Part shown: positions 15,468 through 41,123 of the stretch, in pieces | How the letters are laid out: the number at the start of each line of letters is the position of its first letter | How positions within the stretch are numbered: position 1 is the stretch's first letter | Virus record (IMG/VR): IMGVR_UViG_3300024429_000007 | Span: 1 to 64,000 of that record | DNA from: a virus | Strand: one strand, 5' to 3' | DNA: 64,000 nt | Position numbers and translations under genes: made by a program | Notes under the pieces: model-generated | The model's input: the letters and a program-made list of their open reading frames with translations, nothing else | The model's database searches: none | What the model was told of the DNA's origin: nothing

Positions 15468-15478
15468 CAGATCCTCCT

Positions 15479-16381: not shown

Positions 16382-18317
16382 GTTGCCTCACCTCCTCAGA
16401 ATCTGACCGTATAAGCTTCAGATTCTGATTTTGTTTTGCATCGCGGACGATAGCCAGATTTCTTCTCGCGTCCTCCAACAGCGGATTGTAATTCAAGGCC
16501 TTCTCGTAGCATTCTTCTGCCTTATCGAGTTGTCCAAGATTGAAATGACAGCTACCGAGATTCACCCACGACTTATAGTTGTACACACCCAGATCCAAAG
16601 GAATGAAAGTATCGAATTGCGGCTTCAACTGAAGCGCATTTTCAAAAGCTGCTGCCGCTTTGTGAAAGACTTTTTTGTAGAAGTACGCCAATCCAATAAC
16701 CGCAAACGGCTCAGCTCGCAGATTCGTGCATTTGATCGCCTCATACCCATAATCAATCGCCTCATCGTACTCCTTCTCATCCAGATACAACTCGGCTAAG
16801 CCCAGAGCCGCCAGGTATCTGAAGTTGCTCTTAAACTTATCCAATGTCATAACCAATTTGTACCTGGTCTCTGCATCTTGAATTCGACCCGCTCCCTTGT
16901 AAGCCCGGGCGAGGTTGAAATTCACAAAGAGATCCTCCGGTTTCTCTTCGATTTCCCTCAAGAGAATCCGGATATTGAAATCGTGCTGTCCACTTTTATC
17001 CTTGAACTTTGCAATCTCCGGTCCGCCATGAATTATAGGAAGATTGACTTTCTGAAAATCATCTCCCCTTAAATCAAGGGTCTCATGCAGACGACTGCGA
17101 AAGCGATAGCTTCTCCGGTTTTTGACCAGACGAATTCGAGTGTTGATCAGAAGTAATTCGCCAGTGTCTCCGAGGCAATGCGTCGGGAAAGCAAAGGCGG
17201 TTGTTCCATTGGAATTTAGCGTCAGATTCTTAATCGCATCAGCTTGCTCTTTTTGGACGTAATCGTCGGCATCAAGCCAGCAAATCCATCCCGATTCGGC
17301 TTTAGAAAATGCAAAGTTCCTCGCAGCGGAAAAATCGTCACCCCACTCGTAGTCGAAGATCTTATCGGTGTATTCCCTTGCAACTTCCTTCGTTCGGTCG
17401 GTCGAGCCGGTATCCACGATTACAATTTCATCCGCGACTTCTTTCAAATTTTCTAAACATCTTGGCAAGGTCTTCTCTTCATCCTTCACAATCAGGCAGA
17501 AACCCAAGCTGTTGTCTTCCTCAAAAAGATCATCGACCTCTTCATCTCCCCACTTTTCTCTCAATATCGATTGATTACCGGTCAACTGCTTATCGAAATC
17601 AAATTCCGGATCTTTCTTCAATTCCTCGAAGGTTTGATGTCCGTAATGATATATGAAAACGTCTCGGGCGACTCCGAGTCTCCAGCCAGCTTTTCGTATT
17701 CGAATGGAATAGTCAAAGTCATCGCTGCAACCGATTCCGAAGGCTTCATCCAAAAGGCCAACCTCCTCCAGAACCTCCCGCCGCATCAGAACACAAATCC
17801 CAATGAGCAGTTTGGTATCGAGAAGTTGCCCTTTACACTTTTCGTAATTCTCCTGGGCGGCATCATTGATCTCTTCCGGAGTCAGTTTTCCAGTATCACC
17901 GGCTAACTGAGCCGCCTGTTTCCACATCACGAAGTTCGAACAGGGTCCCACTGCGCCGACTTCAGGATGCGCTTCGAGATGAGCTAACATCCGCTCGAAA
18001 CAAAATTCGGTTGCGACCATATCGTTGTTCATAAAACAAGCGAATGGAGCAACCGATTCTTTCAAGCCTTGATTTACAGCCTTGACAAATCCGAGATTCT
18101 CCTTGTTGTGGATGAACCGTACTCCGGACCTTTCCATCTCAAAGAGGTCTTGATCGAAGACATCGCTGCCATTATCGATCAAGGTCAGTTTATAGGGTAC
18201 CCGGACGTAAGAGAAGATGCTGCGAATACATTGCTTCGTCAGGCCATTCTGATTCCAGTACGGGATAATAATATCGACAATCGGCTCCTGAGTCAGATCT
18301 TTCGAGTTCAATTTCAA
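16365..18317 (-). CDS. Two-domain GT2 glycosyltransferase with TPR repeats
   Basis: A GT-A fold GT2 domain (residues about 10-240; DIIIPYWN, MNNDM) is followed by a second GT2 domain (about 275-480; LIVKDEEKTL, VDTGSTDRT, WLDADD) and tetratricopeptide repeats to the end (EALQLKPQFD, KALNYNPLLED). The second half resembles SunS-like transferases, which glycosylate proteins or peptides. Length 650. The start is TTG after AAAGGA. Lying between two propeller genes, it may decorate virion or host glycans; target unknown. Confidence 0.85.
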   Translation of the reverse strand: MKLNSKDLTQEPIVDIIIPYWNQNGLTKQCIRSIFSYVRVPYKLTLIDNGSDVFDQDLFEMERSGVRFIHNKENLGFVKAVNQGLKESVAPFACFMNNDMVATEFCFERMLAHLEAHPEVGAVGPCSNFVMWKQAAQLAGDTGKLTPEEINDAAQENYEKCKGQLLDTKLLIGICVLMRREVLEEVGLLDEAFGIGCSDDFDYSIRIRKAGWRLGVARDVFIYHYGHQTFEELKKDPEFDFDKQLTGNQSILREKWGDEEVDDLFEEDNSLGFCLIVKDEEKTLPRCLENLKEVADEIVIVDTGSTDRTKEVAREYTDKIFDYEWGDDFSAARNFAFSKAESGWICWLDADDYVQKEQADAIKNLTLNSNGTTAFAFPTHCLGDTGELLLINTRIRLVKNRRSYRFRSRLHETLDLRGDDFQKVNLPIIHGGPEIAKFKDKSGQHDFNIRILLREIEEKPEDLFVNFNLARAYKGAGRIQDAETRYKLVMTLDKFKSNFRYLAALGLAELYLDEKEYDEAIDYGYEAIKCTNLRAEPFAVIGLAYFYKKVFHKAAAAFENALQLKPQFDTFIPLDLGVYNYKSWVNLGSCHFNLGQLDKAEECYEKALNYNPLLEDARRNLAIVRDAKQNQNLKLIRSDSEEVRQHGNRG

Positions 18318-18332
18318 AAGTCCTTTCTTAGT

Positions 18333-18725
18333 TTAACACCCGTTGTACCCGGTGATTACGGAGACTGTATCCGGTCCATAATTCACCACAAAGGTCTTTC
18401 CAACAGTCTCATCACAGGCAACACCAGCAGGCTGAACACCCACTCCAATCGTTGCGCTTACCGTATCGGATCCCGTGTGAATTACTGAGACACTATCATC
18501 GTTCCAATTCGTTATGAATGTTTTCCCTGCAGCCTCATCGCAAGCGACTCTGTAAGGGCCTGCCCCTACCCCGATAGTTGCGCTCACGGTATTCGATGGT
18601 GTATGAATGACGGAGATTGTATCATCACCATAATTCGCAACGAAAGTTTTTTCAGCAGTCTCATCACAACCTACTCCGTAAGGACCACCTCCTACGTCGA
18701 TTGTAGCCTCAACTATCGCTGCCAT
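18333..18725 (-). CDS. Three-unit YVTN-type propeller protein
   Basis: Only three of the 42-residue units are present, framed by the same N-terminus (MAAIVEAT) and C-terminus (VITGYNGC) as the seven-unit protein at 15479-16381. This looks like a copy that lost four units by recombination between repeats. Three blades cannot close a normal propeller alone, so it would have to oligomerise or be non-functional. GGGGGTGA precedes the ATG. Confidence 0.75.
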   Translation of the reverse strand: MAAIVEATIDVGGGPYGVGCDETAEKTFVANYGDDTISVIHTPSNTVSATIGVGAGPYRVACDEAAGKTFITNWNDDSVSVIHTGSDTVSATIGVGVQPAGVACDETVGKTFVVNYGPDTVSVITGYNGC

Positions 18726-18741
18726 ATTCGTTCACCCCCGA

Positions 18742-19890
18742 TCAGAGAAGCAGGAAATTATACGAATGAAGCTCGCCCGGGTCCGCAATAAAATAGAGAG
18801 GCGAGTCGGTCAATCGAATCGATCCTCCCGATACATCAATCGGTTGCCCAATTACACCGAAAACAGAAACGTCCTTAAATGGAAACTCTCGATCCATCTC
18901 CAGTCTTTCCGTAGTCCAGATTACGTGGATCTCCTTGTCATCTCTTTCGAAAACGAACCAGTTGATCTTGTCGGTGCACCAACGTTCCTCGACTGTTCGA
19001 CTGGGATACGCTTTCATCTGCGTTTTGAAGATCGCTCCCTTCAAGAAATCCTTGATCGTTCGCATCGCATAATAAGACGGCCTCGGCTTCCCTCTCGTGT
19101 CTAACAGACCCCACCCCAGATGTTTCAGGGCAAACCAGATCGCGTAATCGATCCCGACCGAATTGAAAAGCACGTGTTGTTTGACGAGAGAAATCGCCTG
19201 ACGCTCTGGGGTCTGGATAATGTGAAGGAATTTTGGATCTCCGGTACAGGGAACTCCGCATTCTGCGACGACGACAGGTTTCTCAACGCGGTACCAGGCG
19301 AGAATCTCATTGACTTTCGAAATCCCCTGAAGGATATTCTTTGTTCCTCCGTATCCGTAAGTATAGAAATTCAGGCTGATAAAGTCTAGCACCTGTCCAA
19401 TCCCAAGTGCAAAACAGTTCTCGAAAAACTGACTTCGATCCTCATTCCCAAAGCTGCCATTGAACGTCGGAGTAATCCACCCGCAGCCTCCGATTACGTT
19501 TTCAGGATCGATCTTTTTGCCCATCTCGTAGAACGTCCGAACCTGACGAACGAATTCCTCCTCGTCCCCCGAGAACCGGCACCCTGGCTGATCGGGACGA
19601 GTCTCTGGCTCTCCTCCGAAATCCCAAATCCGAATGAGGCCCCGATATTTCTCCAACACTTCCTTGAAGGCCGCGTGGGGAACGTTGTTCACGCCCACCG
19701 GCAGAATGAACTTACCGATCAGCCTCGTGTCCGAATCGATGACTGCTGCACAATCTTCGGGAGAGGGACTATTCAGGTGCAATGGAAGCTGGACCAAATC
19801 TGGATCAAGGTCGAAGATATGATCCTTGAATTTCGTCAAAACGCCAGCGACTGCAACTCCAAACTGATCAACGGTCCATTTTTGAATCAT
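18742..19890 (-). CDS. Clan GH-A-like glycoside hydrolase
   Basis: A TIM-barrel pattern with GGEPE (residues 92-96; likely acid/base Glu94 or Glu96) and VVVAECG (Glu210, likely nucleophile) matches retaining glycosidases of clan GH-A, closest in feel to GH39/GH5-like proteins. Length 382 gives one barrel plus a small C-terminal beta domain. No signal peptide, so it acts in the cytoplasm or on the virion. GGAG lies upstream of the ATG. It could trim host surface glycan or the glycan made by neighbouring genes; the specific substrate cannot be read. Confidence 0.78.
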   Translation of the reverse strand: MIQKWTVDQFGVAVAGVLTKFKDHIFDLDPDLVQLPLHLNSPSPEDCAAVIDSDTRLIGKFILPVGVNNVPHAAFKEVLEKYRGLIRIWDFGGEPETRPDQPGCRFSGDEEEFVRQVRTFYEMGKKIDPENVIGGCGWITPTFNGSFGNEDRSQFFENCFALGIGQVLDFISLNFYTYGYGGTKNILQGISKVNEILAWYRVEKPVVVAECGVPCTGDPKFLHIIQTPERQAISLVKQHVLFNSVGIDYAIWFALKHLGWGLLDTRGKPRPSYYAMRTIKDFLKGAIFKTQMKAYPSRTVEERWCTDKINWFVFERDDKEIHVIWTTERLEMDREFPFKDVSVFGVIGQPIDVSGGSIRLTDSPLYFIADPGELHSYNFLLL

Positions 19891-19893
19891 AGC

Positions 19894-20700
19894 CTACTCC
19901 TTTATCTTTTCGGCAATGACCAACATCTCATCCATCTGCGACGATGGGAGTTTCCGGGATGTCTTAAACCCCTCCAACTTCAGCAAAAGATTCAGCGTGG
20001 AATGATCGTAGTGGAAACAATGCTGGTACAACGACCAGAAGGGATGCAGAGGATCATCTCCGTACTTCGCAGTATCCGGCATTTGGATAATCATGAGCAT
20101 ATTTTCCGAACTGTGCGTAAAGATCTTCCGAAGCAATTTCCGAGGATGCTGCGAATGTTCCAGACTATCCCAGAGCAGCACACAATCGAAAATCTCTTCA
20201 TTGTCCAGAACGAGTTCGTCCATGTCCTGACACCGGAGTTCCAGGCCCAAATGCTCTCTGCCCCAATCCACTGCCCACTTAGAGAACTCGATTCCAACGA
20301 CTCTCCATCCCCGATCGAAATACGGTTTGCTCATGTGCCCGGTGGCGCACCCGAAATCGATCAACGAACAGGGCTTCCGGGTTTTGTCTTTCCAACGTCT
20401 ATTGAACCAAGAGAGAGTAAGCTTCCCGAAGTAAATCTTCGCTCCGAGGTGATCTTCCTCGATGTAATTCGGGTACCCGATGCACCCTTTGGGATCGGCG
20501 ATGTAGTACTCTTTTTTATGATACGCCTTTCGATCCGCCGCGGAGATGTTCGGGTTGAAAAAAAGCAGCCCGCATTCTTCGCACCGCTCGACTTTTAATG
20601 GCTGTTCCTGAGCCCAGTTGTTCGGCGGGCATTCGAACAGAAATTCGGACTTCGTTCGATGGTCGTGTAAGGGACAATGGACTTCGATCAGCTCAGGCAT
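19894..20700 (-). CDS. SAM-dependent methyltransferase with N-terminal zinc motif
   Basis: Class I methyltransferase of the Methyltransf_23 type: glycine motif DFGCATGHM (near residue 97), acidic VVGIEFS and post-motif LLWDSLEHS. The first 45 residues have CEECGLLFFNP, a zinc-ribbon start typical of sugar or small-molecule methyltransferases in glycan clusters. ATG at 20700 follows GAGGAGG; a longer TTG frame is rejected. Probably O-methylates a sugar. Confidence 0.85.
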   Translation of the reverse strand: MPELIEVHCPLHDHRTKSEFLFECPPNNWAQEQPLKVERCEECGLLFFNPNISAADRKAYHKKEYYIADPKGCIGYPNYIEEDHLGAKIYFGKLTLSWFNRRWKDKTRKPCSLIDFGCATGHMSKPYFDRGWRVVGIEFSKWAVDWGREHLGLELRCQDMDELVLDNEEIFDCVLLWDSLEHSQHPRKLLRKIFTHSSENMLMIIQMPDTAKYGDDPLHPFWSLYQHCFHYDHSTLNLLLKLEGFKTSRKLPSSQMDEMLVIAEKIKE

Positions 20701-20711
20701 TTTTCTCCTCC

Positions 20712-21215
20712 TCAAAAATAAGTCGCTTCGGTTAAACCAACAATTGCATCTATCTTCTCGGTTCCTTCGCTGAGCATCAGCATAGACCGGTGAAAGCCAT
20801 CAATGACTTCGAATTCTCCGTTCAACTTCTCAGAAAATTTCTGCACAACCGTAATCTTTTGTTTCTCTGGGTGAATTGAACCGGTCCCATGAGTAATCCG
20901 TTTGCTACAATCTCGAAGATTCCCATTCCACTTTCTCAAGAGCGGATTCCAAATCGGATCCACGGCGGTCACGCAGAGTTCCTTCGTAGACAGACTGATC
21001 TCGACCCATTCGACAATCTGCTCATTTCTCCTATCGGTCTTGTAGCCAAGCGTCCAGACTCCAAAGGGATTCACCTGTCTATTGTGGAAGCATTGACTAC
21101 GAACAAGTTGCTCTAATACTCGATCATCTCGGATCGTTTTCCCAGATTCCAAGAATAGAAAATAACGTAAAACGTCTGAAAAAGCAAGGCATTTTTTTGC
21201 AATATAGTTTTTCAT
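20712..21215 (-). CDS. ParB/Srx-like domain protein
   Basis: Protein of 167 residues. Near the end FEVIDGFHRSMLMLSEG followed by IDAIVG matches the core of ParB/sulfiredoxin-like folds (usually VIDGxHRxxAxxxxG). Such free-standing domains occur in phages and in nucleotide- or sugar-linked contexts. It starts by ATGA overlap with the GT-B gene, so it is co-translated with a glycan enzyme, which is an odd setting. Function unknown. Confidence 0.55.
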   Translation of the reverse strand: MKNYIAKKCLAFSDVLRYFLFLESGKTIRDDRVLEQLVRSQCFHNRQVNPFGVWTLGYKTDRRNEQIVEWVEISLSTKELCVTAVDPIWNPLLRKWNGNLRDCSKRITHGTGSIHPEKQKITVVQKFSEKLNGEFEVIDGFHRSMLMLSEGTEKIDAIVGLTEATYF

Positions 21216-22345
21216 CGTTGCTGACTTTTCCGAAATGGGATAATATCCTGCGGATTCAGATCTAATGGAACTTCATCTCCCTTGATAATATCGGCATATA
21301 GATCTGTTACGTCTTCCAGGCTGTAACGTTCCAAGCACCATGTACGCGCCCACGCAGATCTACTAATTCGCTTTTTTTGGACTTTGGGCAACCACCCATA
21401 CCCATCCACATACCTCAATGGCGGGGATTGCTTTTTCAAATAATTCACCAACTCCACATCGTCTTGAAAAATGCACTCCACTGGGTGCATCTCATCCGCA
21501 CCTGGCCAATTAAATATCACCGGCACGCACCCGCAGAGCATTCCTTCCGTAATTGCAGCGTGCCAACTTTCATCCTCAGAGAAACTGATTACAAAATCAA
21601 TATCAGCAAACCACTTTATAACCGCATCTCCACTCACATGGTCAAGAACCTGGATACGATCCGAAGATCGAACTACAGACTCAAGTTCAGCAATGTAATC
21701 TGGAAAGTGTGTTCGATCATTTTCCTCAAAACCAAGCAAGCTCAACGAAAAATTCGGTGAAAGACAATTCGCTTCCGTCCAACGATTAGATATTGGATAT
21801 TCCATTGCTAATGGCCCATCGAGCAATTTAGCAAATTCGACAACTCGTTTCCGTGGAATACACCGGCCCAACATACCTAATCTCCGACCATAGTCACGCT
21901 GATTTATGAAATCATTCAAAAACCGCCAGTGCTGTTCATCTACCAATCTGGGTACAGTTATACATCGTTCCTGCATATCATCCAGAACATTTGCAACACA
22001 ATTCTCAAGGAAAAGATTCCTGTAATGATTACTCATGAACAGAACTGCGGAGGCATTCTCCCAATAGTAGAACGGTGAATTCTCATGCCAGACATCGCCG
22101 CGATGCGTTCGTACAATAATCCGCTTCTCTGGAAAATTCTCCAGATAAAACTGCGCCCACGCCAATCCCCAATCCACAAAAATTACATCCGCCCATTTCG
22201 CCAAGCTCCTTTGGACATAATCTCGTGGATGCTCACGGTCAAGAAAATTACAGCTAAACCGTTGCGACATGATTGCCTTAAATCTCTTTGGAACAAACTG
22301 CCACAACCCGCCAGCATCGAATAATACCTTCAGTTTATGCTCCAT
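21212..22345 (-). CDS. GT-B glycosyltransferase (GT4-like)
   Basis: Two Rossmann-type halves: the N-terminal half has VLFDAGG and WADVIFVDWG, the C-terminal half has LGMLGRCIPRKRV (near residue 180) and the donor-binding ESWHAAITEGMLCGCVPV, which carries the E-x(7)-E pattern of GT4-like enzymes. It transfers a sugar from a nucleotide-sugar donor; acceptor unknown. AAGGA lies upstream of the ATG. Confidence 0.82.
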   Translation of the reverse strand: MEHKLKVLFDAGGLWQFVPKRFKAIMSQRFSCNFLDREHPRDYVQRSLAKWADVIFVDWGLAWAQFYLENFPEKRIIVRTHRGDVWHENSPFYYWENASAVLFMSNHYRNLFLENCVANVLDDMQERCITVPRLVDEQHWRFLNDFINQRDYGRRLGMLGRCIPRKRVVEFAKLLDGPLAMEYPISNRWTEANCLSPNFSLSLLGFEENDRTHFPDYIAELESVVRSSDRIQVLDHVSGDAVIKWFADIDFVISFSEDESWHAAITEGMLCGCVPVIFNWPGADEMHPVECIFQDDVELVNYLKKQSPPLRYVDGYGWLPKVQKKRISRSAWARTWCLERYSLEDVTDLYADIIKGDEVPLDLNPQDIIPFRKSQQR

Positions 22346-22358
22346 CGGAATCCTTCTT

Positions 22359-22997
22359 TCATTGATATACTTCTACTCGGAATTCACCTACCCAATCGAA
22401 AACAGTCTCCCGGAATCGGTGAGGAAGATTAACACGGCTTTTTTTTGCATTTGCGAATAGAACATAATCCTTCCAGGCCTTCACGGCAGAACTATCGATT
22501 ACTTCGTTCCATAATGCAGAAGAAAGGAAAGTCGGCTTCTTTTCAAAAACCAAAGTATTCGTATAAAAAGAAACCAACCAGTAGTGGTATGGTAGAGGAT
22601 GAAGCATCTCTTTGAAAGGCGATGGCGTCTTGATCCGGCCACGTGCACCGATTCGCATCAATTCTTCGCAGGCCGCTTTTGGATCGAGAATATGTTCAAG
22701 GATATGAGAACACCAGATAAAATCAAAGCTTTCGCTCCTGAAGGGCAGCGCCTCAACTCCGGACAGCAAAAACTTCCGACCTTGATATACCGGAATCAGA
22801 TCAGGATTCATATCGACCAGTACATCCGCCCGGGGGAATGCCGATTCAGTAAGCTGAACCCGAGGAGCACCCGGACCGCATCCAATATCCAGTACGCGAT
22901 CATCTTCCCAGATTCCGTAATCTAAAGCAATTTCATCTCTCGTCCAGCGCGGACGATGCTCTTTCGCTCTCGGTCCCAGATCGGCAAGCGTTACCAT
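22359..22997 (-). CDS. SAM-dependent methyltransferase
   Basis: Class I fold: VLDIGCGPGAPR (near residue 36), VDMNPD, LPFRSESFDFIWCSHILEHILDP. Length 212. No substrate signature; in this setting a sugar or glycolipid methyltransferase is likely. Its start overlaps the end of the glycosyltransferase gene 22991-23962 by seven bases. Confidence 0.85.
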   Translation of the reverse strand: MVTLADLGPRAKEHRPRWTRDEIALDYGIWEDDRVLDIGCGPGAPRVQLTESAFPRADVLVDMNPDLIPVYQGRKFLLSGVEALPFRSESFDFIWCSHILEHILDPKAACEELMRIGARGRIKTPSPFKEMLHPLPYHYWLVSFYTNTLVFEKKPTFLSSALWNEVIDSSAVKAWKDYVLFANAKKSRVNLPHRFRETVFDWVGEFRVEVYQ

Positions 22998-23962
22998 CCC
23001 AATTCCTCAGCACTCTTTCCATAGTACGGATGCTCCAACATAACCACAGGATAAGTCCCAGTAAATTTTTCGAGATGTTCTTCGACCGACTCATCGTAAA
23101 TTCCAGTCCAGATTTTATGATACGTTTGATAGTACTCCATGATTTCTCCGTCGTTCGATTCAAGGATCGGTGCACACCATCGCTTCATTCTTTCGTCGCC
23201 ACCGCCTCGTGCAACCAGGTTTCGAGTCGCATGCGCCCATCGCAGAATATGTCGTTCCATTTTCTCCGGAGTATGCACCCATCCGAAGTGTAGAATATCA
23301 AAGAGACCGGCCGGCTCGAAAAGATATAGTTTTTCGCCTTTCTTGTCAAGCGTTTTTAATTCTTGGAATCGAGTACGCCGAAGACCCAATTCCATTTTCT
23401 GGCCAAGTCGATAAGGTCGTTGTCCAAGAATCTCAATGTCGGGGAGATATTTCCAAAAAAGCCCGGAGTCGATATAGTTACACATCTGAAGATAATCTTC
23501 TCCGACTGTGAGGATATGATTCAAATCGAGGAAAAACATCAACTCTTTCGCCGCGATCATCCAGATTGAAGGATATCCGATTACCAGATTCCGGAGACAT
23601 TGGATCTCTCTTGGTCGATACACCGCGTCCGAATCCAAGATTAAACAATAATCTGTATTCGAACTGACATTCTGATGGCAATGTCTTCGCAAGTCATTTA
23701 CCGATTGCTGCCAACCGTACCGGATGTACTTGATCTTATGATCTGCGTCTTCATCGAGCATGCGTTGAATCTCCGCCTGTGTACCGTCGGTTGAGAGACC
23801 TTCTTCGGTTAAAAACCCTTGCTCGATTGCCTCTCTTCCATATCGATTTCGGGCGGCGCCCTCCACGATGACGATCTCTTCGACCACATCATAGATCGAC
23901 TTCAGCGCGAAGTAAACGTAATCCTCTTCGTTAATCACCACCATCTGAACTGTGAGCTTCAT
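22991..23962 (-). CDS. GT-A glycosyltransferase, paralogue 4
   Basis: Member of a phage-internal family with four copies here: opening VQMVVINEEDYVYFALKSIYD, then EEIVIVEGAA, GLSTDGT, and a DSD acidic motif (LILDSDAVY) expected to hold the metal and sugar nucleotide. ATG at 23962 follows AGAGGGA; the longer frame to 24046 is rejected. It overlaps the WbqC-like gene by 32 bases. Conserved C-terminal TGTYPVVMLEHPYYGKS is shared with the sister copies. Confidence 0.8.
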   Translation of the reverse strand: MKLTVQMVVINEEDYVYFALKSIYDVVEEIVIVEGAARNRYGREAIEQGFLTEEGLSTDGTQAEIQRMLDEDADHKIKYIRYGWQQSVNDLRRHCHQNVSSNTDYCLILDSDAVYRPREIQCLRNLVIGYPSIWMIAAKELMFFLDLNHILTVGEDYLQMCNYIDSGLFWKYLPDIEILGQRPYRLGQKMELGLRRTRFQELKTLDKKGEKLYLFEPAGLFDILHFGWVHTPEKMERHILRWAHATRNLVARGGGDERMKRWCAPILESNDGEIMEYYQTYHKIWTGIYDESVEEHLEKFTGTYPVVMLEHPYYGKSAEELGW

Positions 23963-24650
23963 TTGTCCCTCTTTTGAGATACCGGATGCTGTCTGTACCA
24001 CAATTAAAAAATAGATCAAGAATGGACAACCCGGGGATGAACTCATTTCCGAGTTGAGGGTACTCGAATTGTTGAAAGCTCGAATACGTCAGGCGAAATC
24101 CGGAATCCTCGAAATTCTCAGCGATTTGATAACTCCTCGCTCCGTTACCCGAGAGATATTCACTGCCTCCGACAGCTCTCAAGATTTCAATGATCCTGTT
24201 CTCTTTCGTCGCTTGAACTTTCAAATCGGAAGCAAGGATGAACTCAGATCCGATTCCGAACACTCTCGCAAGAACCTGAATCAACTCTATGTTCAGATCA
24301 CAGAGCTTTTCGTAAGGCCTTCGTAGTACGCACTCGATGACCGGAAACCAACGCTCAAAGTACTCCGCCTTGCCATAATTCTGCTGAAGCGTCCGCACCA
24401 TTTTCGGTCGCCACGGAGTATTCACTATCTCGACACTCTGAATCTTCTGCCCGGAGCGCCCCTTCGTCCGAATGGGAACGGTGAGCCATTGGGGTCCCCT
24501 CGGCGTCCAGATGCTGCAACGATTGGTGAAGCTACCCTTTGAAAATGGAACATCGTCCAGAAAGACGAAGATATCGCAGTGTGCCATCTTGTAAAAATAG
24601 CCGAGCCAGGGAGCAAAGTTGGGCTGGTGTATGGCGACGGTGCAACTCAT
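23931..24650 (-). CDS. WbqC-family protein
   Basis: Family signature IHQPNFAPWLGYF (residues 7-19) and LDDVPFSKGSFTNR (31-44), with the usual length near 240. WbqC proteins occur in O-antigen and other surface glycan clusters; their chemistry is not firmly established, though roles in acylating or amino-sugar steps have been proposed. GGAGG precedes the ATG. Confidence 0.88.
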   Translation of the reverse strand: MSCTVAIHQPNFAPWLGYFYKMAHCDIFVFLDDVPFSKGSFTNRCSIWTPRGPQWLTVPIRTKGRSGQKIQSVEIVNTPWRPKMVRTLQQNYGKAEYFERWFPVIECVLRRPYEKLCDLNIELIQVLARVFGIGSEFILASDLKVQATKENRIIEILRAVGGSEYLSGNGARSYQIAENFEDSGFRLTYSSFQQFEYPQLGNEFIPGLSILDLFFNCGTDSIRYLKRGTNEAHSSDGGD

Positions 24651-24662
24651 CAGTACCTCCTC

Positions 24663-25322
24663 TCAGGACCTTCTTCGATTGGTTTCAAGAGCTTGGGGAT
24701 ACTTGGTGAAATCCGGCCGATAAAGAAAGATCGTGAAGTCATTTTCTTTGTAGGTGTGATCTAAAAAGGCCCCTCGCGGAGAAATCTCTTTTGTAAGAAG
24801 TGTGAATATCTCGCCTGGATCCGAATAAAAGGAATCGAGGTCCCGGCCCAGCCCGAACTTGCTCAGAAAATTTACCCCGACCCCAATCCGACAGAGGGCG
24901 TACATCTTTGTCACAATCTCAATCACCCTAGCATGCCAGTCTTTTTCATCTAAGGCAAACAATCCCGATCCAAAGACGAAATCAAATTGGTCATCGAAAT
25001 TCAGCCCGCGCACGTCGAATATCAAAAAGCTATGGCATGGGTGTTTCTTTCGGGCAATTTGAATCGCCGCTTCAACGAGATCGCAACCCAAGTACCGAGC
25101 GATCTGATACTCTTCTTCGATCAGAAATTTGAGAAAATCTCCCGTTCCACATCCAACGTCCAAAATCGATCTAGTATCGAGATCTCCGATCCGAGTCAGC
25201 GCTCGGAATCTTACCTCTTGCGACTCCTGGCTATTCCAGAAAGTCTCTGGAGAATCACCAAGTTTCCTGAACCGGTCTGTATAGTACTTCAAATTTCTAT
25301 CGGATAATCCAGTGAATTGCAT
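24663..25322 (-). CDS. SAM-dependent methyltransferase
   Basis: Class I methyltransferase: SILDVGCGTGDFLKF (near residue 53), LGCDLV, and DFVFGSGLFALDE. ATG at 25322 is chosen because GGAGG lies upstream; the frame extends to 25394 inside the PIG-L gene. Length 219. Substrate unknown; one of four methyltransferases in this glycan island. Confidence 0.85.
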   Translation of the reverse strand: MQFTGLSDRNLKYYTDRFRKLGDSPETFWNSQESQEVRFRALTRIGDLDTRSILDVGCGTGDFLKFLIEEEYQIARYLGCDLVEAAIQIARKKHPCHSFLIFDVRGLNFDDQFDFVFGSGLFALDEKDWHARVIEIVTKMYALCRIGVGVNFLSKFGLGRDLDSFYSDPGEIFTLLTKEISPRGAFLDHTYKENDFTIFLYRPDFTKYPQALETNRRRS

Positions 25323-25926
25323 TGAAGGCCTCCGCGTATTGAGTCCCGATCTGACCACCTCGTGCGCGAACGAGACTCCGGATAAAATCTTCATTGATGT
25401 AATCCCTTCCCAACTGTGAGAAGTAGCATTTCAACGCTCGGATCTTCAACTCGATGAATTGCTCCTCCAGAAAGATGAAACATTCTGTCCTGAAGGATAA
25501 GTTGTTCCAGGGAATTTCGTATCCAAGAAGAGTTGATTTCTTGAAGGCGCGGAATCCTTCGGCTGCAATAACCTGATGATCCTGATGTGTATCATCTGCC
25601 GAGGGCAGAAAGACCAAATCCGGTTCGATTACGTCTCTCAGTTCGATCATATCTTCGAGAATACTTTGACGATGAGCAGGGAAATCCCGGACTTCGTAAT
25701 CGAAAAGAATCAGATTCTCTCTTGTAATCCCAAGCGCAGCGGTTGCCTTTTTAACTTCCTCTCGGAGAATCCCTTTTGGCAACTCGGGTGGAACAGATTT
25801 CTCGGCAGATGAGAAAGCCACATAGAAGACTTCTTTATCTTCAGCGAGAAATCGAGCCAGACTACCACCACAACCGAATTCGCAATCGTCGGTATGTGGA
25901 CTCAGCGCCAGTATTCGCTGAACCAT
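25297..25926 (-). CDS. PIG-L/LmbE-family deacetylase
   Basis: Zinc-dependent N-acetylglucosamine-type deacetylase. Signature SPHTDDCEFGCGG (residues 9-21; His11 and Asp14 as ligand and base) and HQDH (114-117). Length 209 is slightly short for the family but complete. It would remove an acetyl group from an amino sugar, leaving a free amine. It lies between methyltransferase genes in the glycan island. Confidence 0.9.
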   Translation of the reverse strand: MVQRILALSPHTDDCEFGCGGSLARFLAEDKEVFYVAFSSAEKSVPPELPKGILREEVKKATAALGITRENLILFDYEVRDFPAHRQSILEDMIELRDVIEPDLVFLPSADDTHQDHQVIAAEGFRAFKKSTLLGYEIPWNNLSFRTECFIFLEEQFIELKIRALKCYFSQLGRDYINEDFIRSLVRARGGQIGTQYAEAFNAIHWIIR

Positions 25927-25927
25927 T

Positions 25928-26431
25928 TCAGTATGTCCTTTCTCTGCTCTTAACTCCTCTGTATCCGAATTCTTCCCACGTTCCCCTTGCTTCGCCTCGC
26001 GCTACGAGATATTCGAGAGATACAAAATCTGCTCGATTCAACAAATTTCTTAGGGACCCTCGCCAGAACATACATTTGTGCGCCATAAAGGGACTGGCAT
26101 CGGGATCATATCCAAAAATCACTATGTTAAGCCACTCGTACTCACATTCTCCATGAGTCCAACGATGGAAGGCCTCAAGAGCATTGGGAACATAGACCGT
26201 AATTTTGCCTTCTGCCTTCAGTACACGATTCCACTCTTGAAGGATAACAATCGAAGACTCCTGACGAAAATGCTCCAGAATATGGGACGCCCAGAGTTCA
26301 TCGGCAACTGTATCCTGAAATGGAAGAAATTGCGCATCGGCTACGACATCGGGTCGGAGCGATCGGTCAAGATCGATTACAACCCACTCATTCCGCCGTG
26401 CGCCTCCTCCGATGTCCAGTTTAAGCCTCAT
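25928..26431 (-). CDS. SAM-dependent methyltransferase, short
   Basis: Compact class I methyltransferase of 167 residues: LDIGGGARR (5-13), VIDLDR, ADELWASHILEHF. The cofactor motif starts almost at the N-terminus, so either the fold is minimal or the true start is upstream; the ribosome site is weak. Probably acts on a sugar or lipid in this cluster. Confidence 0.78.
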   Translation of the reverse strand: MRLKLDIGGGARRNEWVVIDLDRSLRPDVVADAQFLPFQDTVADELWASHILEHFRQESSIVILQEWNRVLKAEGKITVYVPNALEAFHRWTHGECEYEWLNIVIFGYDPDASPFMAHKCMFWRGSLRNLLNRADFVSLEYLVARGEARGTWEEFGYRGVKSRERTY

Positions 26432-26437
26432 TTAAAA

Positions 26438-26644
26438 TTATATACCCCAGAGCTTTCCTTGCAGTGACCAGAGTCTTACTTGCGCCTCTCGAAGAAATTC
26501 CTGCATTTCAGTTTCGACTTCTTGAAGCTCCTCTTCGCTTAATACTTCGACCAGTTTACTTAAACGATTCAAGTCCCGCAAGACTTTCTTTTGAATATCT
26601 AATATCGACTTCGCTCGATCACTTACTCCCAGATCTTTCGACAT
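26438..26644 (-). CDS. Small coiled-coil protein
   Basis: Protein of 68 residues, nearly all helical with heptad-like leucines (LDIQKKVLRDLNRLSKLVEVL). No family recognised. AGAGGT precedes the ATG. It lies between a methyltransferase and a glycosyltransferase gene. Confidence 0.6.
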   Translation of the reverse strand: MSKDLGVSDRAKSILDIQKKVLRDLNRLSKLVEVLSEEELQEVETEMQEFLREAQVRLWSLQGKLWGI

Positions 26645-26664
26645 GCGGGTACCTCTTCAACAAT

Positions 26665-27660
26665 TCAGTCCCACCATTTCAAATCGTAGAAAGGAGACCT
26701 CTGATCACCCTCGGGGTCCTCGTGTCTGAACCACTCTTCCGGTTTATCGAAATAAGGATGTTTCTGAATCAGCCCATCGAGAGGATACGATCCCTTGAAC
26801 TCATCCACATGTTCAACATCGGTATCTAAGACCTTGGTATAGAATTTGTGGTACATCCTCAGCCAGTCCATCAGCGTCTCCCGTCGCCGATCAGGAAGTA
26901 CGAGACGGTTCTTCTCCATCGTCTGTGGAGCGAAAAACTTCCGCATGAGCTGAACTTCCATTCGCTCCTTCAACTGGACATTTCCAAAGTGGAATACGTC
27001 CAGCAAGTCGGGACTGTAAACAATGTATTTCTGATCTCCGTACTCATATTCACGAAGACGCAAAAAATCAATCCAGTCAATCTTGGTTCGTTCACTGGTA
27101 CTCCCGTCACCGAACCAAATTGTTCGTTCTCTTTCAAAATACATCGTCGGGTTATACCTGAAAAAACACCAACGCCAATAATCCTTTCGTTCTATTCCAG
27201 TATGTAGGACGTGCCGGAAGTCCCAGATAAATGACCAACAGTATTCCGCCACTTCATAAACTTGGGGATATGTCTTTAAGACTTTTTTTGCCTTCAGAAT
27301 ATTTCTTGGCTTAAAGAGACAATCCCCATCCTGAATGAGTTCGATGTCGGTATCCTCGGGCAACATCGAGTGCGCTTTGTTCCGAAGATCCTCCCAACTG
27401 TGCACAAAGCCAACTTGTTCATAATGCACCTTCCCTTCGGGATCGTCATTGGCAATGAACCTTTGGACTTCCTCGCCAGTATTATCCAACGATAGCCCCT
27501 CACTTGTTGCAGGAACGTGGTCGTACTTATTATGGAAAACATCGTGCGTGATCGCACCCTCAACAACGGCGATGTAATCGACTGCCGGATATGATGATTT
27601 TAAGGCCCAGTAAACATAAGGCTGGTCATTGAGAGTAAGCATGTGACAACCAATTTTCAC
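26665..27660 (-). CDS. GT-A glycosyltransferase, paralogue 3 (mini-array homologue)
   Basis: Family pattern GCHMLTLNDQPYVYWALKSS, then YIAVVEGAI, GLSLDNTG and acidic motif IQDGD. A GTG at 27660 with AGGAG eight bases upstream is the chosen start; it aligns with starts of the sister copies, while a TTG at 27699 lacks a site. Codons 24-35 or so (KSSYPAVDYIAV) are the segment repeated, with nine synonymous changes, in the spacer of the mini-CRISPR array just upstream. C-terminal GSYPLDGLIQKHPYFDK is shared with the family. Confidence 0.82.
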   Translation of the reverse strand: MKIGCHMLTLNDQPYVYWALKSSYPAVDYIAVVEGAITHDVFHNKYDHVPATSEGLSLDNTGEEVQRFIANDDPEGKVHYEQVGFVHSWEDLRNKAHSMLPEDTDIELIQDGDCLFKPRNILKAKKVLKTYPQVYEVAEYCWSFIWDFRHVLHTGIERKDYWRWCFFRYNPTMYFERERTIWFGDGSTSERTKIDWIDFLRLREYEYGDQKYIVYSPDLLDVFHFGNVQLKERMEVQLMRKFFAPQTMEKNRLVLPDRRRETLMDWLRMYHKFYTKVLDTDVEHVDEFKGSYPLDGLIQKHPYFDKPEEWFRHEDPEGDQRSPFYDLKWWD

Positions 27661-27692
27661 TATATCATCTCCTGATGCTGCCAGTGAACGAT

Positions 27693-27802
27693 GTTTCAAT
27701 CCTTGTTTTAATGGATAGCGTTCTTAAACTACTGCGATGTAATCGACAGCGGGATACGAACTCTTATTTCAATCCTTATTTTGATGGATAGCGCTCTTAA
27801 AC
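27693..27802 (-). CRISPR. Single-spacer mini-CRISPR array
   Basis: Two 37-base repeats (27693-27729 and 27766-27802; 33 of 37 identical) flank one 36-base spacer (27730-27765). Read on the minus strand the repeat begins GTTTAAGA and ends AAGGATTGAAAC, with an internal ATCC/GGAT stem; the last eight bases match the ATTGAAAC-type 5' handle made by Cas6 in many type I and III systems. There are no cas genes in the window, so host Cas proteins would be needed. No leader is visible: the array starts six bases after the stop of the upstream gene and would be read with the late operon. The spacer encodes KSSYPAVDYIAV, identical to the downstream glycosyltransferase but with nine silent base differences. 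Confidence 0.85.
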
Positions 27803-27808
27803 TTTCCT

Positions 27809-28810
27809 TTATAGTCCTTCTTCCAGTCCAAACCAATGCTTACTCTTTCCAAAAAATGGATGACTGCGAAGCATCTGATCCATCGGATACTTACCTAAAT
27901 ACGGAACAACTCGCTCTCCAACTTTGTCATCGAAAATACCTGTCCAGATCTTGTGATACAATCGGTGATAATCCAAGATCTCCTCGGCACTCATATCTAT
28001 AAATGGCATCCAATAGTTTCGGTCCGTATCCGTGACTTTCTCTGGATCGTGTTTCAGAAGCCATTGCAACCTGAGCACTCTCGACCAAGTCGTCTTCAGC
28101 AGATGCGCCTCTATCGCCATTCTACGCCCAACCCATCCAAAATGCCAGAACTGAAACATCGGCGGATATACTGCGACATCATCTTTCGTTCCTTCCAACT
28201 GATCGGGGCGAACCTCGAGGATCGGATGCAACCAGCCCTCCGGTTCAAACTGGTTATCGAAAAAAGAAATCTCCCCCTTATATCTCAATCGCTCATCGTA
28301 TCGGTAGAAGAGACACGCCAAATGATGACCATACGGCCGCTTGTATTCTTCATTGATCTGGAGAACATGGTGCATATCCAGAAAGAAGATCAATTGATCG
28401 GAATAGACGACTCGAATGTTTGGATACTGTTCACAGAGACTCTTAACCTGCTGAAGTTGCGACTCATCATACAGATGATCCGCATCTGCCACTAAAATAT
28501 AATCCGTATCCTTCGGGCACTCCCGTAAAGCAAGCTCTCTCAGCGTTCCAATCGTCGGCTGGAATCCAGCCTGGATATACTTAATCTTACCTTCCGAATC
28601 GTATTCTTCGATAAACCTCTCAATCTCTCCCTCCGTATTATCAAGTGACAATCCAAACCGATCGAAAGAACCAAATTCCTTCCATTTATCTTTAGCCACA
28701 CCTTCCACTATGACGATATGATCCACTACATCGTAGATCGATCTCAGCGACCACCAGACCCAATCCTCTTCATTTATTACAATCATCAATGCTGTAAGTT
28801 TCAAAGCCAT
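27809..28810 (-). CDS. GT-A glycosyltransferase, paralogue 2
   Basis: Begins MALKLTALMIVINEEDWVWW, then HIVIVEGVAK, GLSLDNTEG, and DADH (LVADADHLY) as the acidic motif. C-terminal KYPMDQMLRSHPFFGK is common to the family. ATG at 28810 follows GGAGGG and overlaps the previous gene's stop by ten bases; an upstream in-frame extension is rejected. Donor and acceptor unknown. Confidence 0.82.
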   Translation of the reverse strand: MALKLTALMIVINEEDWVWWSLRSIYDVVDHIVIVEGVAKDKWKEFGSFDRFGLSLDNTEGEIERFIEEYDSEGKIKYIQAGFQPTIGTLRELALRECPKDTDYILVADADHLYDESQLQQVKSLCEQYPNIRVVYSDQLIFFLDMHHVLQINEEYKRPYGHHLACLFYRYDERLRYKGEISFFDNQFEPEGWLHPILEVRPDQLEGTKDDVAVYPPMFQFWHFGWVGRRMAIEAHLLKTTWSRVLRLQWLLKHDPEKVTDTDRNYWMPFIDMSAEEILDYHRLYHKIWTGIFDDKVGERVVPYLGKYPMDQMLRSHPFFGKSKHWFGLEEGL

Positions 28811-29796
28811 CCGAAGTCCCTCCTCTGCATGCCGAAGAAGGGATGATCTTTCATTGGAAGCGGATGCTCTCCCACTGCCTCCCACAAGATTTGGTCGCAT
28901 CGGATCCGATTGACCTTCGATGGAGGAAATTTTTGAAGAACATCTTCATCGGGCAAGATCCCCGTCCAGATCGGATTATACGTTTCGATGAACTCGGTTA
29001 GCTCCTGATCCGAAGATTCAGCCCGAACATTCAGCCCGGAATACGCATCAGATCTGCGATACGTCTGAAGAACCCGCTCGATCATCTTTTCACGTTTCCG
29101 AACCCACCCGTAATGATACTGTGGAATTACCCGCTTTCGCAATGTAATTCCATCGAGCCCTTGTTCCTGTGCATCTTTGATTCCTGTTTCGATGTCATCT
29201 TGAGCAATCCAAGGTAGCCACCAATTTATCAGAGGTTCGCCCTCGAAGTAAGGATTGTGTTCAGCGCTTTTCTCGGGATAGTACTCTCCTGGATAGAACT
29301 TTCTGAACATCGTTCCGCCAGTCGGTTCCAATTTGCCCATTTTCTTTGAAATCCGGCGAGTCCAGAAGTCCAGATAAAAATGGATCCGATCCACAGCAAC
29401 GCCACACAATCTCGGATGATCCGAGAACATCTGCCGAACTCGCAAAATGTCCAACGCCTTGTAACATTCATCCGCATCTACGTTGAGGAAATGAGTGGTC
29501 TCTCGTGGAAAAAGATCCACTGCATGGTTTGCCAATTCCGCGTAGTTTTTCGCAAAACCGTATTTGTAATTCCAAACCTTTCCATCCGGATCGTCGTTGG
29601 CGATGAATCGTTCAATCTCCTCGGAGCTACGATCTATCGAGAGTCCGGATTTGGAATAAAAACCCTCAATCCTTCCGTACTCTCCGATACATCCTTCGAC
29701 GATCACAATTGCATCGACAGCATCGTACATCGACTTTAGAACGTACCAGATATAGTCCTCTTCGTTCAGGAACAGTACTCGAGCTGTCAGAAACAT
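28801..29796 (-). CDS. GT-A glycosyltransferase, paralogue 1
   Basis: Begins MFLTARVLFLNEEDYIWYVL, then AIVIVEGCIG, GLSIDRSS and DADE (NVDADECY). About 330 residues, with a family C-terminus (MKDHPFFGM). It is the most divergent of the four copies in the second half. GGAGG precedes the ATG; it overlaps the GT9 gene by ten bases, so the array is translationally coupled. Confidence 0.82.
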   Translation of the reverse strand: MFLTARVLFLNEEDYIWYVLKSMYDAVDAIVIVEGCIGEYGRIEGFYSKSGLSIDRSSEEIERFIANDDPDGKVWNYKYGFAKNYAELANHAVDLFPRETTHFLNVDADECYKALDILRVRQMFSDHPRLCGVAVDRIHFYLDFWTRRISKKMGKLEPTGGTMFRKFYPGEYYPEKSAEHNPYFEGEPLINWWLPWIAQDDIETGIKDAQEQGLDGITLRKRVIPQYHYGWVRKREKMIERVLQTYRRSDAYSGLNVRAESSDQELTEFIETYNPIWTGILPDEDVLQKFPPSKVNRIRCDQILWEAVGEHPLPMKDHPFFGMQRRDFGWL

Positions 29797-30755
29797 CCAA
29801 TATCCTCCAATGTGTTAATCACCATTTCAACGGTGATCTTCTTGAGACACTGGCGATAATGAGGCCGCTTATGACAAGCATGCGTCTGCCAGTCCCAACA
29901 TGGATTGCAGTCAACTCTTAAACTGAGACCGGTAGTTTTGGGATAGTACCCGATCCGAAACTCCGGTGGGATCGGTCCGAATAAGGCGACCGAAGGAATT
30001 TGGAGAAGGCCTGCCAGGTGCATAATGCCCGAATCTGGACAAACGAGATACTCACAAAACGAGAGCAACCCCAACAGATCGATCAAGGCGGTCTTGTCAG
30101 GCACAATTACGTGATCGAATTTCCGAAATTGCTCTCGGACTGCATGACTCTCCAAAATCAAAATCTTCCATCCCTCTCGGTCCGATAACCGCTCAACCAA
30201 TTCAAGATTGCGTTCCACGGGCCAGGTTCGAATAGCGGAATATGCCATCAGGTGTAAACCGAACAACTTTTCACCTCGCCAACCTGCCCTTTGCAGAATT
30301 GTTCTTGCCTTTACAATTTCGCTCTTCAAAATCGGAAAGTCGAACCGCGGACAGTAACATTGAGGATTTAGCTCCAGTAATCTCGCAAAGAGATCTTGCC
30401 TCGGTGCTTCGCAGCAGATTGGAAGAAAATCAACTTTGTTCTGGAGATCGACTACCAGGTCGTATCGTCCTTTCACCTCGGCCTGCTTTTCATTCACCAA
30501 ACGGTCGATGAAATCGAATCGTCGAAGCAACGGAAAGAAGATTGGTGAAGTCCCGAAGACCAGTTTCGTCTTCGGTCCGTACTTTCCCTTCAATGCCTTC
30601 AAAGCAGGTAAAACCTGCAAGACATCGCCAAGACCCCGAAATCGTTTCACCAGAACTGCGGACTGCTTTCCTTTTCCGGTTCTGAAACCAGCATTGAAAA
30701 GTTGAATCTCTTCAGACATAGTTCTGGAATCCGGGACATCCCTTGTACGCGGCAT
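29787..30755 (-). CDS. GT9-family heptosyltransferase-like protein
   Basis: GT-B enzyme related to ADP-heptose:LPS heptosyltransferases: N-terminal VKRFRGLGDVLQVLPAL (near 36-52) and C-terminal VCPDSGIMHLAGLLQIPSVALFGP (around 230), the donor-site pattern of this family. Cysteines near the end (CNPCW, CHKRPHYRQC) also fit the family. It would add a heptose-like sugar, which suggests that the glycan resembles part of a Gram-negative surface polysaccharide. AGGAGG precedes the ATG. Confidence 0.88.
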   Translation of the reverse strand: MPRTRDVPDSRTMSEEIQLFNAGFRTGKGKQSAVLVKRFRGLGDVLQVLPALKALKGKYGPKTKLVFGTSPIFFPLLRRFDFIDRLVNEKQAEVKGRYDLVVDLQNKVDFLPICCEAPRQDLFARLLELNPQCYCPRFDFPILKSEIVKARTILQRAGWRGEKLFGLHLMAYSAIRTWPVERNLELVERLSDREGWKILILESHAVREQFRKFDHVIVPDKTALIDLLGLLSFCEYLVCPDSGIMHLAGLLQIPSVALFGPIPPEFRIGYYPKTTGLSLRVDCNPCWDWQTHACHKRPHYRQCLKKITVEMVINTLEDIGCF

Positions 30756-38810: not shown

Positions 38811-41123
38811 TCAAGTCGTATCGCCCCAAAAAGTTGCACGAAATTGAACGTAGCGCTTGCGTTCACTATCTTCTGCGTAGCCTCCGGATTCGTATTCCGC
38901 GAAGGGAAGAGTATAATTGATTTCCTCAACATCTGAAATAACTGAAACTGAATCGTCTCCGTTGTTTGCTGCAAATATCTTTCCGGCCGATTCATCGCAA
39001 TCAATACCATAAGGACCGTCGCCGATACTGATCGTTCCAACAACAAGATTACTCGAACTATCAACTACTGAAACACAATCATTCCCACTATTGGTTACGA
39101 AAGTTTTTCCGACCCCCTCATCACAAACTACATCGCGAGGATTAGATCCTACATTGACCGTAGCGCTGACTGTATTTGACGGTGTGTGAATCACCGACAC
39201 AGTATTGTCATCATAATTCGCCACAAAAGTTTTCTCTACGGTCTCGTCGCAAGCGACACCGCGGGGATTAGATCCCACACTGATCGTAGCGCTGATTGAG
39301 TTTGACGGTGTGTGGATCACCGACACAGAATCATCTCCAGAATTCGATACGAATGTCTTTCCCGCTGTCTCGTCACATGCAACTCCCGAAGCAGTAGTTC
39401 CAACGAAAATTGTTGCACTGATCGTGTTCGAAGCGGTATGGATCACAGAGACTTTAGGCAAATACATAAGAACTAGCTCTGGTGGATTCCCTGCGTTGCG
39501 AGCATCAAACTCGGCCCATCGGTCGTACTGGAGAGGAGGACCTGTTGAGAGTCTAATACCATAATTCAGATACGTCCCTTCACTCCATCCCTGTGCCAAA
39601 GAAGTTAAATTTATCTCGTACCATCCTGCCGTATTGACCCAAAACGATGTGTACCCAGCAACCGCAGGCTGATTATTCCAAGTTATAGTATATTCCTCCC
39701 AATCTGCCAGAACCCGGCCAATGGAAATCAGATGCGATCCAATTCCAACTCCGTTAGCATATATACGAAGAACGGCAGATGTTATTCCCTCACCAACCGG
39801 AAAGCGGATAAATGCGTTTTTCTGCCTCGACAGATGAGTATTATTCGCAACATCTAATTCCGGATCTCCACCATAATTGCCCCCTGGATTGAGAGTATCA
39901 GTCCAAGAATCCCCAGTTGGATAAACTGTGAGTGGTGCAACTCCACTGGCGGCCACAAAGGTCTTCCCTGCGGTCTCATCGCAGGCAACAGCTTGAGGAT
40001 TAGATCCTACGCTGATCGTGGCACTAATAGTATTCGAAGCCGCATGGATAACAGATACAGAACTCGATCCCGAATTCACCACAAACGCCTTTACTGCAGT
40101 TTCATCGCAGGCAACTCCTTCGGGATTAGTTCCTACTCCGATAGTTGCAACCACGGAATTTGAAGCGGTGCTGATTACAGAAACTGTATCAGAAGTCCGA
40201 TTTACAACGAAGGTCTTTCCCACGGCTTCATCGCATGCAACTCCGCGTGGAGCATCGCCAACCGAAATCGTCGCAAGCAAATCATAGGTCGCAGTTCCTC
40301 CCCACTCGGGATCTGCTATATCCGGCACATCCTTATCCGCCCAAGCCCCGCCTCCTTTTTTAATGGTCGGGACGACATTGGAAGCTCGAACAGAAATTGT
40401 CTTAGGTGGAGGTGGAACGGTATCAATCGCTGTCGGACTTGGTTCCTGAGAAGTCCATTTCACAGAACTCAACTGAACCTCGTCTCCTAAATCGACCGCT
40501 CCGCTGGTAAATTTTCCAGTTTCAACATAATCACCGGGCGTTCCGGCAAGTTCGATTTGAAGTTGGGTCGGAGGATCGGTTTGAACTTTGTAGGCTAGTT
40601 CACTACCAGAATAGAATGACCACGATCCTCCATAGATCGCCTGCCAAGTACCCGTTCCTCCAGATCCTTTCATATAGATCTTCGCCGTGTTACCCCCTGT
40701 GTTACTTCGGTATAAAGCCCCAACCCAAATCGGACCCGTAGTTACAGCGAAATCTAAATCCCAAGTGTACCAAGCTTTCGGAAAGGGGCCATAGAGTGGA
40801 GGACCGGGTGACGTCCAAGCTGGATCTACAGTATCTGCTGGTACCCCACTCTCATCCAGCCAAAGTTTTGCGAAAATCAAATCAGGGTCATCAACTAATG
40901 AAATCAAAAGACTTATTTTCTTAATCACTGAATCGAGGGGTACGATAATTTTCGAGCAAACACAACGAGAGACGTGGTACCCTGCACTTACATAAGTACC
41001 CCCATCAGTTTGCTCAAGATACCAACCCCCTTCGATCTCCGTATCATCCAGACTGTCCGCCGAATTCGGACTTGGTCCAAAGTCTACCCAAGCTATCTCA
41101 GCATCCGCTCCACCGATCTTCAT
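38811..41123 (-). CDS. Tail propeller protein: YVTN repeats with inserted DNRLRE-like domain
   Basis: The N-terminal ~270 residues form a beta-rich domain (GTWQAIYGGSWSFYSGSELA). Then seven YVTN-type units follow, the same 42-residue type as the two propeller genes at 15.5-18.7 kb. The third blade is split by about 165 residues resembling a DNRLRE domain (FIRFPVG...TITWNNQPAVAGY). The last 35 residues form a tail. Thus a closed seven-bladed propeller carries a probable sugar-binding or fibre domain on one blade. It follows the tape measure by ATGA overlap, so it is a strong tail-tip candidate. Confidence 0.78.
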   Translation of the reverse strand: MKIGGADAEIAWVDFGPSPNSADSLDDTEIEGGWYLEQTDGGTYVSAGYHVSRCVCSKIIVPLDSVIKKISLLISLVDDPDLIFAKLWLDESGVPADTVDPAWTSPGPPLYGPFPKAWYTWDLDFAVTTGPIWVGALYRSNTGGNTAKIYMKGSGGTGTWQAIYGGSWSFYSGSELAYKVQTDPPTQLQIELAGTPGDYVETGKFTSGAVDLGDEVQLSSVKWTSQEPSPTAIDTVPPPPKTISVRASNVVPTIKKGGGAWADKDVPDIADPEWGGTATYDLLATISVGDAPRGVACDEAVGKTFVVNRTSDTVSVISTASNSVVATIGVGTNPEGVACDETAVKAFVVNSGSSSVSVIHAASNTISATISVGSNPQAVACDETAGKTFVAASGVAPLTVYPTGDSWTDTLNPGGNYGGDPELDVANNTHLSRQKNAFIRFPVGEGITSAVLRIYANGVGIGSHLISIGRVLADWEEYTITWNNQPAVAGYTSFWVNTAGWYEINLTSLAQGWSEGTYLNYGIRLSTGPPLQYDRWAEFDARNAGNPPELVLMYLPKVSVIHTASNTISATIFVGTTASGVACDETAGKTFVSNSGDDSVSVIHTPSNSISATISVGSNPRGVACDETVEKTFVANYDDNTVSVIHTPSNTVSATVNVGSNPRDVVCDEGVGKTFVTNSGNDCVSVVDSSSNLVVGTISIGDGPYGIDCDESAGKIFAANNGDDSVSVISDVEEINYTLPFAEYESGGYAEDSERKRYVQFRATFWGDTT

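Follow-up and report, generated by a model that had tools for sequence, protein, structure and literature searches.

A phage-borne mini-CRISPR array whose spacer is a silent-site variant of the neighboring glycosyltransferase gene

Why would a phage carry a pair of CRISPR repeats around a spacer that encodes the same peptide as its own adjacent gene and yet differs from that gene at nine of 36 bases? The question arises from a locus in a stretch of 64,000 nucleotides (here called the window), positions 1 to 64,000 of IMG/VR record IMGVR_UViG_3300024429_000007, a virus record of 71,287 bases. The array takes up the space that separates two co-directional genes belonging to one gene run, and the locus is made up of the following features.

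27809..28867, minus strand: upstream co-directional glycosyltransferase-2-like gene (weak match to PF00535)
27766..27802, minus strand: first (5′) CRISPR repeat, DR7 family, GTTTAAGAGCGCTATCCATCAAAATAAGGATTGAAAT (RF01320, 37.8 bits)
27730..27765, minus strand: spacer, 36 nt, coding sense KSSYPAVDYIAV, a silent-site variant of the adjacent glycosyltransferase
27693..27729, minus strand: second (3′) CRISPR repeat, GTTTAAGAACGCTATCCATTAAAACAAGGATTGAAAC (RF01320, 50.5 bits)
26665..27660, minus strand: glycosyltransferase-like gene holding the homologous site (from the ORF list and an alignment of paralogs)
27565..27600, minus strand: carrier site homologous to the spacer (27 of 36 bases and 12 of 12 residues identical)

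The earlier note on this DNA had described 37-base repeats around a 36-base spacer, and this description is correct. The two 37-nt minus-strand repeats (27802-27766 and 27729-27693) are identical at 33 of 37 positions and differ at four. The Rfam family CRISPR-DR7 (RF01320) matches both on the minus strand over the full length of the model, with scores above the Rfam gathering score for this family (37 bits). Each repeat has the hairpin AUCC...GGAU and a 3′ handle, AUUGAAAC/U; the phage DR7 repeat sequence is GTTTAAGARCGCTATCCATYAAAAYAAGGATTGAAAC. No further DR7 copies were found elsewhere in the 64-kb window, and there were none in shuffled windows, as expected by chance. We recognized no leader at the array. 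The 5′ repeat ends in GAAAT and the two repeats are unlike, so some decay is possible. The repeats are paired, with a repeat-to-repeat distance of 73 nt, and hence do not fit the definition of an RNA anti-CRISPR (Racr) or solitary repeat unit as a single repeat; they do fit that of a mini-array, in which bona fide CRISPR repeats of a virus genome enclose one or two spacers. The Rfam CRISPR repeat matches, together with the silent-only differences of the spacer, rule out a tandem duplication of gene fragments. Judged from its sequence, the element is a real CRISPR mini-array.

Written 5′ to 3′ as crRNA, the spacer (27765-27730) is AAGAGTTCGTATCCCGCTGTCGATTACATCGCAGTA, and in frame it reads KSSYPAVDYIAV. 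Compared codon by codon with the homologous site in the carrier's own gene, it has mismatches at spacer positions 3, 4, 5, 6, 9, 15, 18, 33, and 36, and all nine are synonymous. This comparison bears out two earlier claims: that 12 of 12 residues are the same while 9 of 36 bases differ silently, and that five of the nine differences lie in the first nine spacer bases. Of 100 shuffled spacers compared with the whole window, none matched at more than 24 positions, against 27/36 for the real spacer, and the protein was kept in none of 2,000,000 random versions of the carrier site with nine substitutions. Random choice of synonymous codons gives a mean identity of 26.6/36, close to the 27/36 observed, indicating that silent-site divergence is saturated. 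At one serine codon the spacer has AGT where the gene has TCA, and a single synonymous step cannot interconvert the two. Divergence that is both silent only and saturated points to a protein-coding ortholog, rather than a decayed local copy, as the source of the spacer. These codon patterns led us to conclude that the spacer was derived from a functional but evolutionarily distant ortholog and not from a recent ancestor that merely escaped.

The gene at 26665..27660 belongs to a group of four paralogs within the window that are 29 to 32% identical. Its most likely start is the GTG at 27660, and in a Pfam search no single family reached the threshold. The motif encoded by the spacer differs by several residues among the four paralogs of the phage, and the source is hence nearer to the 26665-27660 gene than the other paralogs are. 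The array lies 93 to 128 bp from the homologous site (~165 bp from center to center). With uniform placement, such closeness would be expected ~0.3% of the time (genome of at least 117.8 kb).

Our preferred explanation, to which we assign a probability of about two in three, is that this phage-borne, apparently cas-less mini-array steers a host CRISPR system, probably of type I-B, at the orthologous glycosyltransferase gene of a rival, while the carrier escapes. Minus-strand transcription of the glycosyltransferase gene run would carry the pre-crRNA; the upstream gene has its stop (27809-27811) 6 nt ahead of the array, making co-transcription possible. Cleavage of the repeats by host Cas6 would release a crRNA made up of the handle AUUGAAAU and the 36-nt guide, ending up as AUUGAAAU-AAGAGUUCG..., and this crRNA would load host Cascade, probably of type I-B. 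Since the guide has the sequence of the coding strand, it would pair with the DNA template strand rather than with mRNA, which favors DNA targeting and speaks against antisense or transcript targeting. The guide would direct Cascade to the ortholog of the glycosyltransferase gene in a related phage infecting the same cell, and host Cas3 would destroy that phage. The carrier gene, different at nine of 36 sites and mostly in the seed, would be spared. In type I systems, spacer positions 1 to 9 are the PAM-proximal side; with five of the nine mismatches located there, interference against the carrier should fail. Iranzo et al. point out that sufficiently strong divergence would restrict primed adaptation against the carrier as well (PMC7099407). 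The earlier note had called the silent divergence immunity. That statement describes a consequence: because the divergence equals full synonymous saturation, selection for escape need not have shaped it. We infer transcription, processing, host type, target phage, and the exclusion effect.

A perfect protospacer in the glycosyltransferase gene of a related phage, which the earlier note had named as evidence to seek, was looked for in IMG/VR and was not found: degenerate patterns covering every codon choice of the KSSYPAVDYIAV spacer matched only this phage. In the same database, orthologs of the 26665..27660 glycosyltransferase were either from the same phage or relatives at 25 to 31%, and tblastn found no close relative in phage or plasmid collections. 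Hence, where the spacer had been said to match an orthologous gene of another phage, a coding ortholog as its source is upheld, but the perfect match is lacking from IMG/VR. We infer that a rival phage exists as the target.

Host genomes were searched for the repeat. The exact phage repeat was absent from the genome contig collection, and no repeat with up to three mismatches was found in samples from the phyla of L007 and L004. A loose DR7 repeat pattern identified related arrays in five metagenome-assembled genomes (MAGs) of the genome collection; a host search thus recovered the repeat family, though not an identical host repeat. In one MAG (L008/L100), a six-repeat DR7 array adjoins cas4, cas2, cas1, cas3, a cas5b-like gene, and cas7/csh2, which make up a type I-B locus. 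The repeat family therefore lies beside I-B cas genes in one MAG, in which the 5′ half of the repeat is unlike that of the phage. The phage array is probably type I-B, an assignment based on the repeat family. The spacers of the DR7-type arrays that were examined have no match in the phage, and distant relatives that share a virion or packaging gene with the phage are without a DR7 unit.

A second IMG/VR record, IMGVR_UViG_3300009528_000013 (117,770 bases), is 99.99% identical to the window source over the 10.9 kb compared and contains the window array unchanged. It also holds a second DR7 mini-array with an unrelated spacer, a newly reported feature.

IMGVR_UViG_3300009528_000013 16943-16837 (L015:7838-7944), outside the window, minus strand: second DR7 mini-array, two repeats and one spacer

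The spacer of the second mini-array is CTCAACATCACAGTCGTTACCGACGATTCGACTG (about 34 nt). Like the window array, this mini-array is co-directional with the surrounding genes. Its repeats have an intact 3′ half, containing the hairpin and handle, and a decayed 5′ half. Both mini-arrays of the phage have CATCAAAA in the first repeat and CATTAAAA in the second, an order that may reflect shared ancestry. Compared with the phage regions for which sequence was available, the second spacer matched nowhere significantly (in its own neighborhood there was only a 20-nt inverted match at 80%, with 19/34 overall, which is within noise), and degenerate patterns covering every codon choice of its peptide gave no protospacer in IMG/VR, matching this phage only. 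No cas families were found among the 25 best matches listed per library for 101 scanned ORFs, a subset of those in the phage. Among the phage's genes are those for an N-acetylmuramoyl-L-alanine amidase and a DnaG-type primase, which make a bacterium the most likely host. At L016:1972-4566 (minus strand), a LAGLIDADG homing endonuclease lies in an intein-like segment that splits a DNA helicase gene.

In IMG/VR, 13 other contigs (L087-L099) contain the 24-nt 3′ half of DR7, consisting of the hairpin plus handle (ATCCATYAAAAYAAGGATTGAAAY), against an estimated chance expectation of ~0.01 occurrences. Most of these half-units are intergenic and nearly all stand alone; their 5′ halves bear no relation to CRISPR repeats. 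By analogy, they look like solitary repeat units and are candidate RNA anti-CRISPRs (PMC10651486). One contig (L097) has two half-units 64 nt apart. In two others (L089 and L098), one and the same truncated DR7 unit with near-identical flanks lies between inverted copies of ATGTAAGTTTCAAT / ATTGAAACTTACAT.

Such units bring up the possibility that the repeats of the phage act as RNA anti-CRISPRs that sequester host Cas6, Cas5, and Cas7, the spacer having been picked up incidentally when phage and host array recombined. With other CRISPR types, inhibition by solitary repeat units of phages has been proven (PMC10651486), and the intact 3′ halves and decayed 5′ halves of the second array, as well as its spacer without a known target, fit this explanation as do the 13 viral contigs. 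The solitary half-units make a decoy worth retaining as a rival, especially for the second array; they leave the coding homology of the first spacer and its adjacency unexplained. A pure decoy gives no reason for the in-frame homology of spacer 1 to the neighboring gene, or for a repeat pair around a spacer of normal length twice in one phage (36 nt and about 34 nt), and the 5′ halves of the window array are conserved as well. We consider a decoy role unlikely. That the array is instead a nonfunctional relic of recombination with a host array is very unlikely. The four differing repeat positions, the loss of the terminal C from the 5′ repeat, and the missing leader would suit a relic, but all four repeat copies of the phage retain the spacing, handle, and hairpin, and both arrays follow the direction of the surrounding genes. 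The array is also identical in two phage records, although these records are near-identical throughout.

The short distance between the array and the homologous site would be accounted for if the array were an RNA-guided homing (drive) unit, in which host Cascade-Cas3 breaks the allele of a rival and repair from the carrier copies both the array and the resistant allele into rivals that survive, by analogy with intronless homing by phage homing endonucleases. The resistant allele of the carrier is indeed linked to the array, and like proximity in SPV1/SPV2 was termed unclear by Medvedeva et al. (PMC6858448). Against homing, Cas3 of type I systems shreds DNA, so that destruction is favored over efficient repair, and the second array shows no homolog of its spacer nearby. 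Our literature search found no published proposal of RNA-guided homing by viral mini-arrays, and we regard it as improbable; if true, it would explain why targets of viral mini-arrays are close to the arrays. The adjacency might also suggest that the crRNA pairs partially with the carrier's own glycosyltransferase gene and represses it in a CreTA-like manner, the partial match adjoining the array and lying near the start of the gene. However, the five mismatches in positions 1 to 9 should block seed pairing, and the differences resemble random synonymous drift, so that we give such repression hardly any credence.

Exclusion of a rival phage, the reading we prefer, has close precedents. Medvedeva et al. 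(2019) described cas-less viral mini-arrays with one or two spacers for inter-virus exclusion, with targets close to the arrays and with point mutations or deletions that prevent self-targeting (PMC6858448). As in the Saccharolobus portogloboviruses SPV1 and SPV2, one or two spacers lie between CRISPR repeats in an intergenic position, here apparently without virus cas genes, and the spacer is homologous to a locus near the array whose carrier copy is mutated, so that it should go untargeted. In contrast to SPV1/SPV2 (PMC6858448), the carrier here is a tailed phage, most likely of a bacterium, and its repeats are of the DR7 family (probably type I-B); the array sits in a gene run with no recognized leader, the self-copy has nine silent changes, and the target virus and an identical host repeat were looked for and not found. 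Faure et al. (2019), as cited in two later papers, reported leaderless mini-arrays of phages and prophages, some of whose spacers target adjacent genes of close relatives and spare the carrier; these resemble the array described here, but their repeats are cited as identical to host repeats, whereas ours match at the level of the family (PMC6858448, PMC7099407). RNA anti-CRISPRs and solitary repeat units (Camara-Wilpert et al. 2023) share with our array the phage-encoded, host-like repeats in intergenic positions, apparently without cas genes, but in our element the repeats come as a pair around a spacer that has a recognizable coding homolog, and SRUFinder would class the element as an array (PMC10651486). 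The Chiyouvirus of Bathyarchaeia likewise has two mini-arrays per viral genome; its arrays have three spacers each, with two perfect self-matches, unlike the single spacers without a perfect self-match in our phage (PMC10848311).

The phage array probably belongs with the known virus-borne mini-CRISPR arrays. The earlier reading is thus sustained as to a mini-array, an ortholog-derived spacer, and a published pattern (PMC6858448), but neither a perfect protospacer nor a host with the same repeat was found. The idea of self-sparing mini-arrays is already published and is not new (PMC6858448); the present array would be a known sort of viral weapon in an unusually clear form. It adds an independent case from a bacterial phage, with probable type I-B repeats, to the small set of viral arrays that seem to direct host CRISPR at rival viruses. 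Its spacer bears the proof of its own origin as a saturated silent-site variant of the neighboring gene. The proximity of array and target, which is unexplained in archaeal viruses, recurs here, and the reason for the adjacency thereby becomes testable.

A large glycan-type cluster extends over positions 14115-30755 of the window, with glycosyltransferases, methyltransferases, a WbqC-like protein, a PIG-L deacetylase, and a heptosyltransferase-like protein. The ORF at 14115-15485 has a class I (Glu/Gln) tRNA-synthetase catalytic domain, with a weak F5/8 type C match farther on. Related repeat proteins of the VFVANxGxDxISVI type, which are beta-propeller-like, occur at 15479-16381, 18333-18725, and about 39060-40245, and these three places in the window align with each other at the DNA level.
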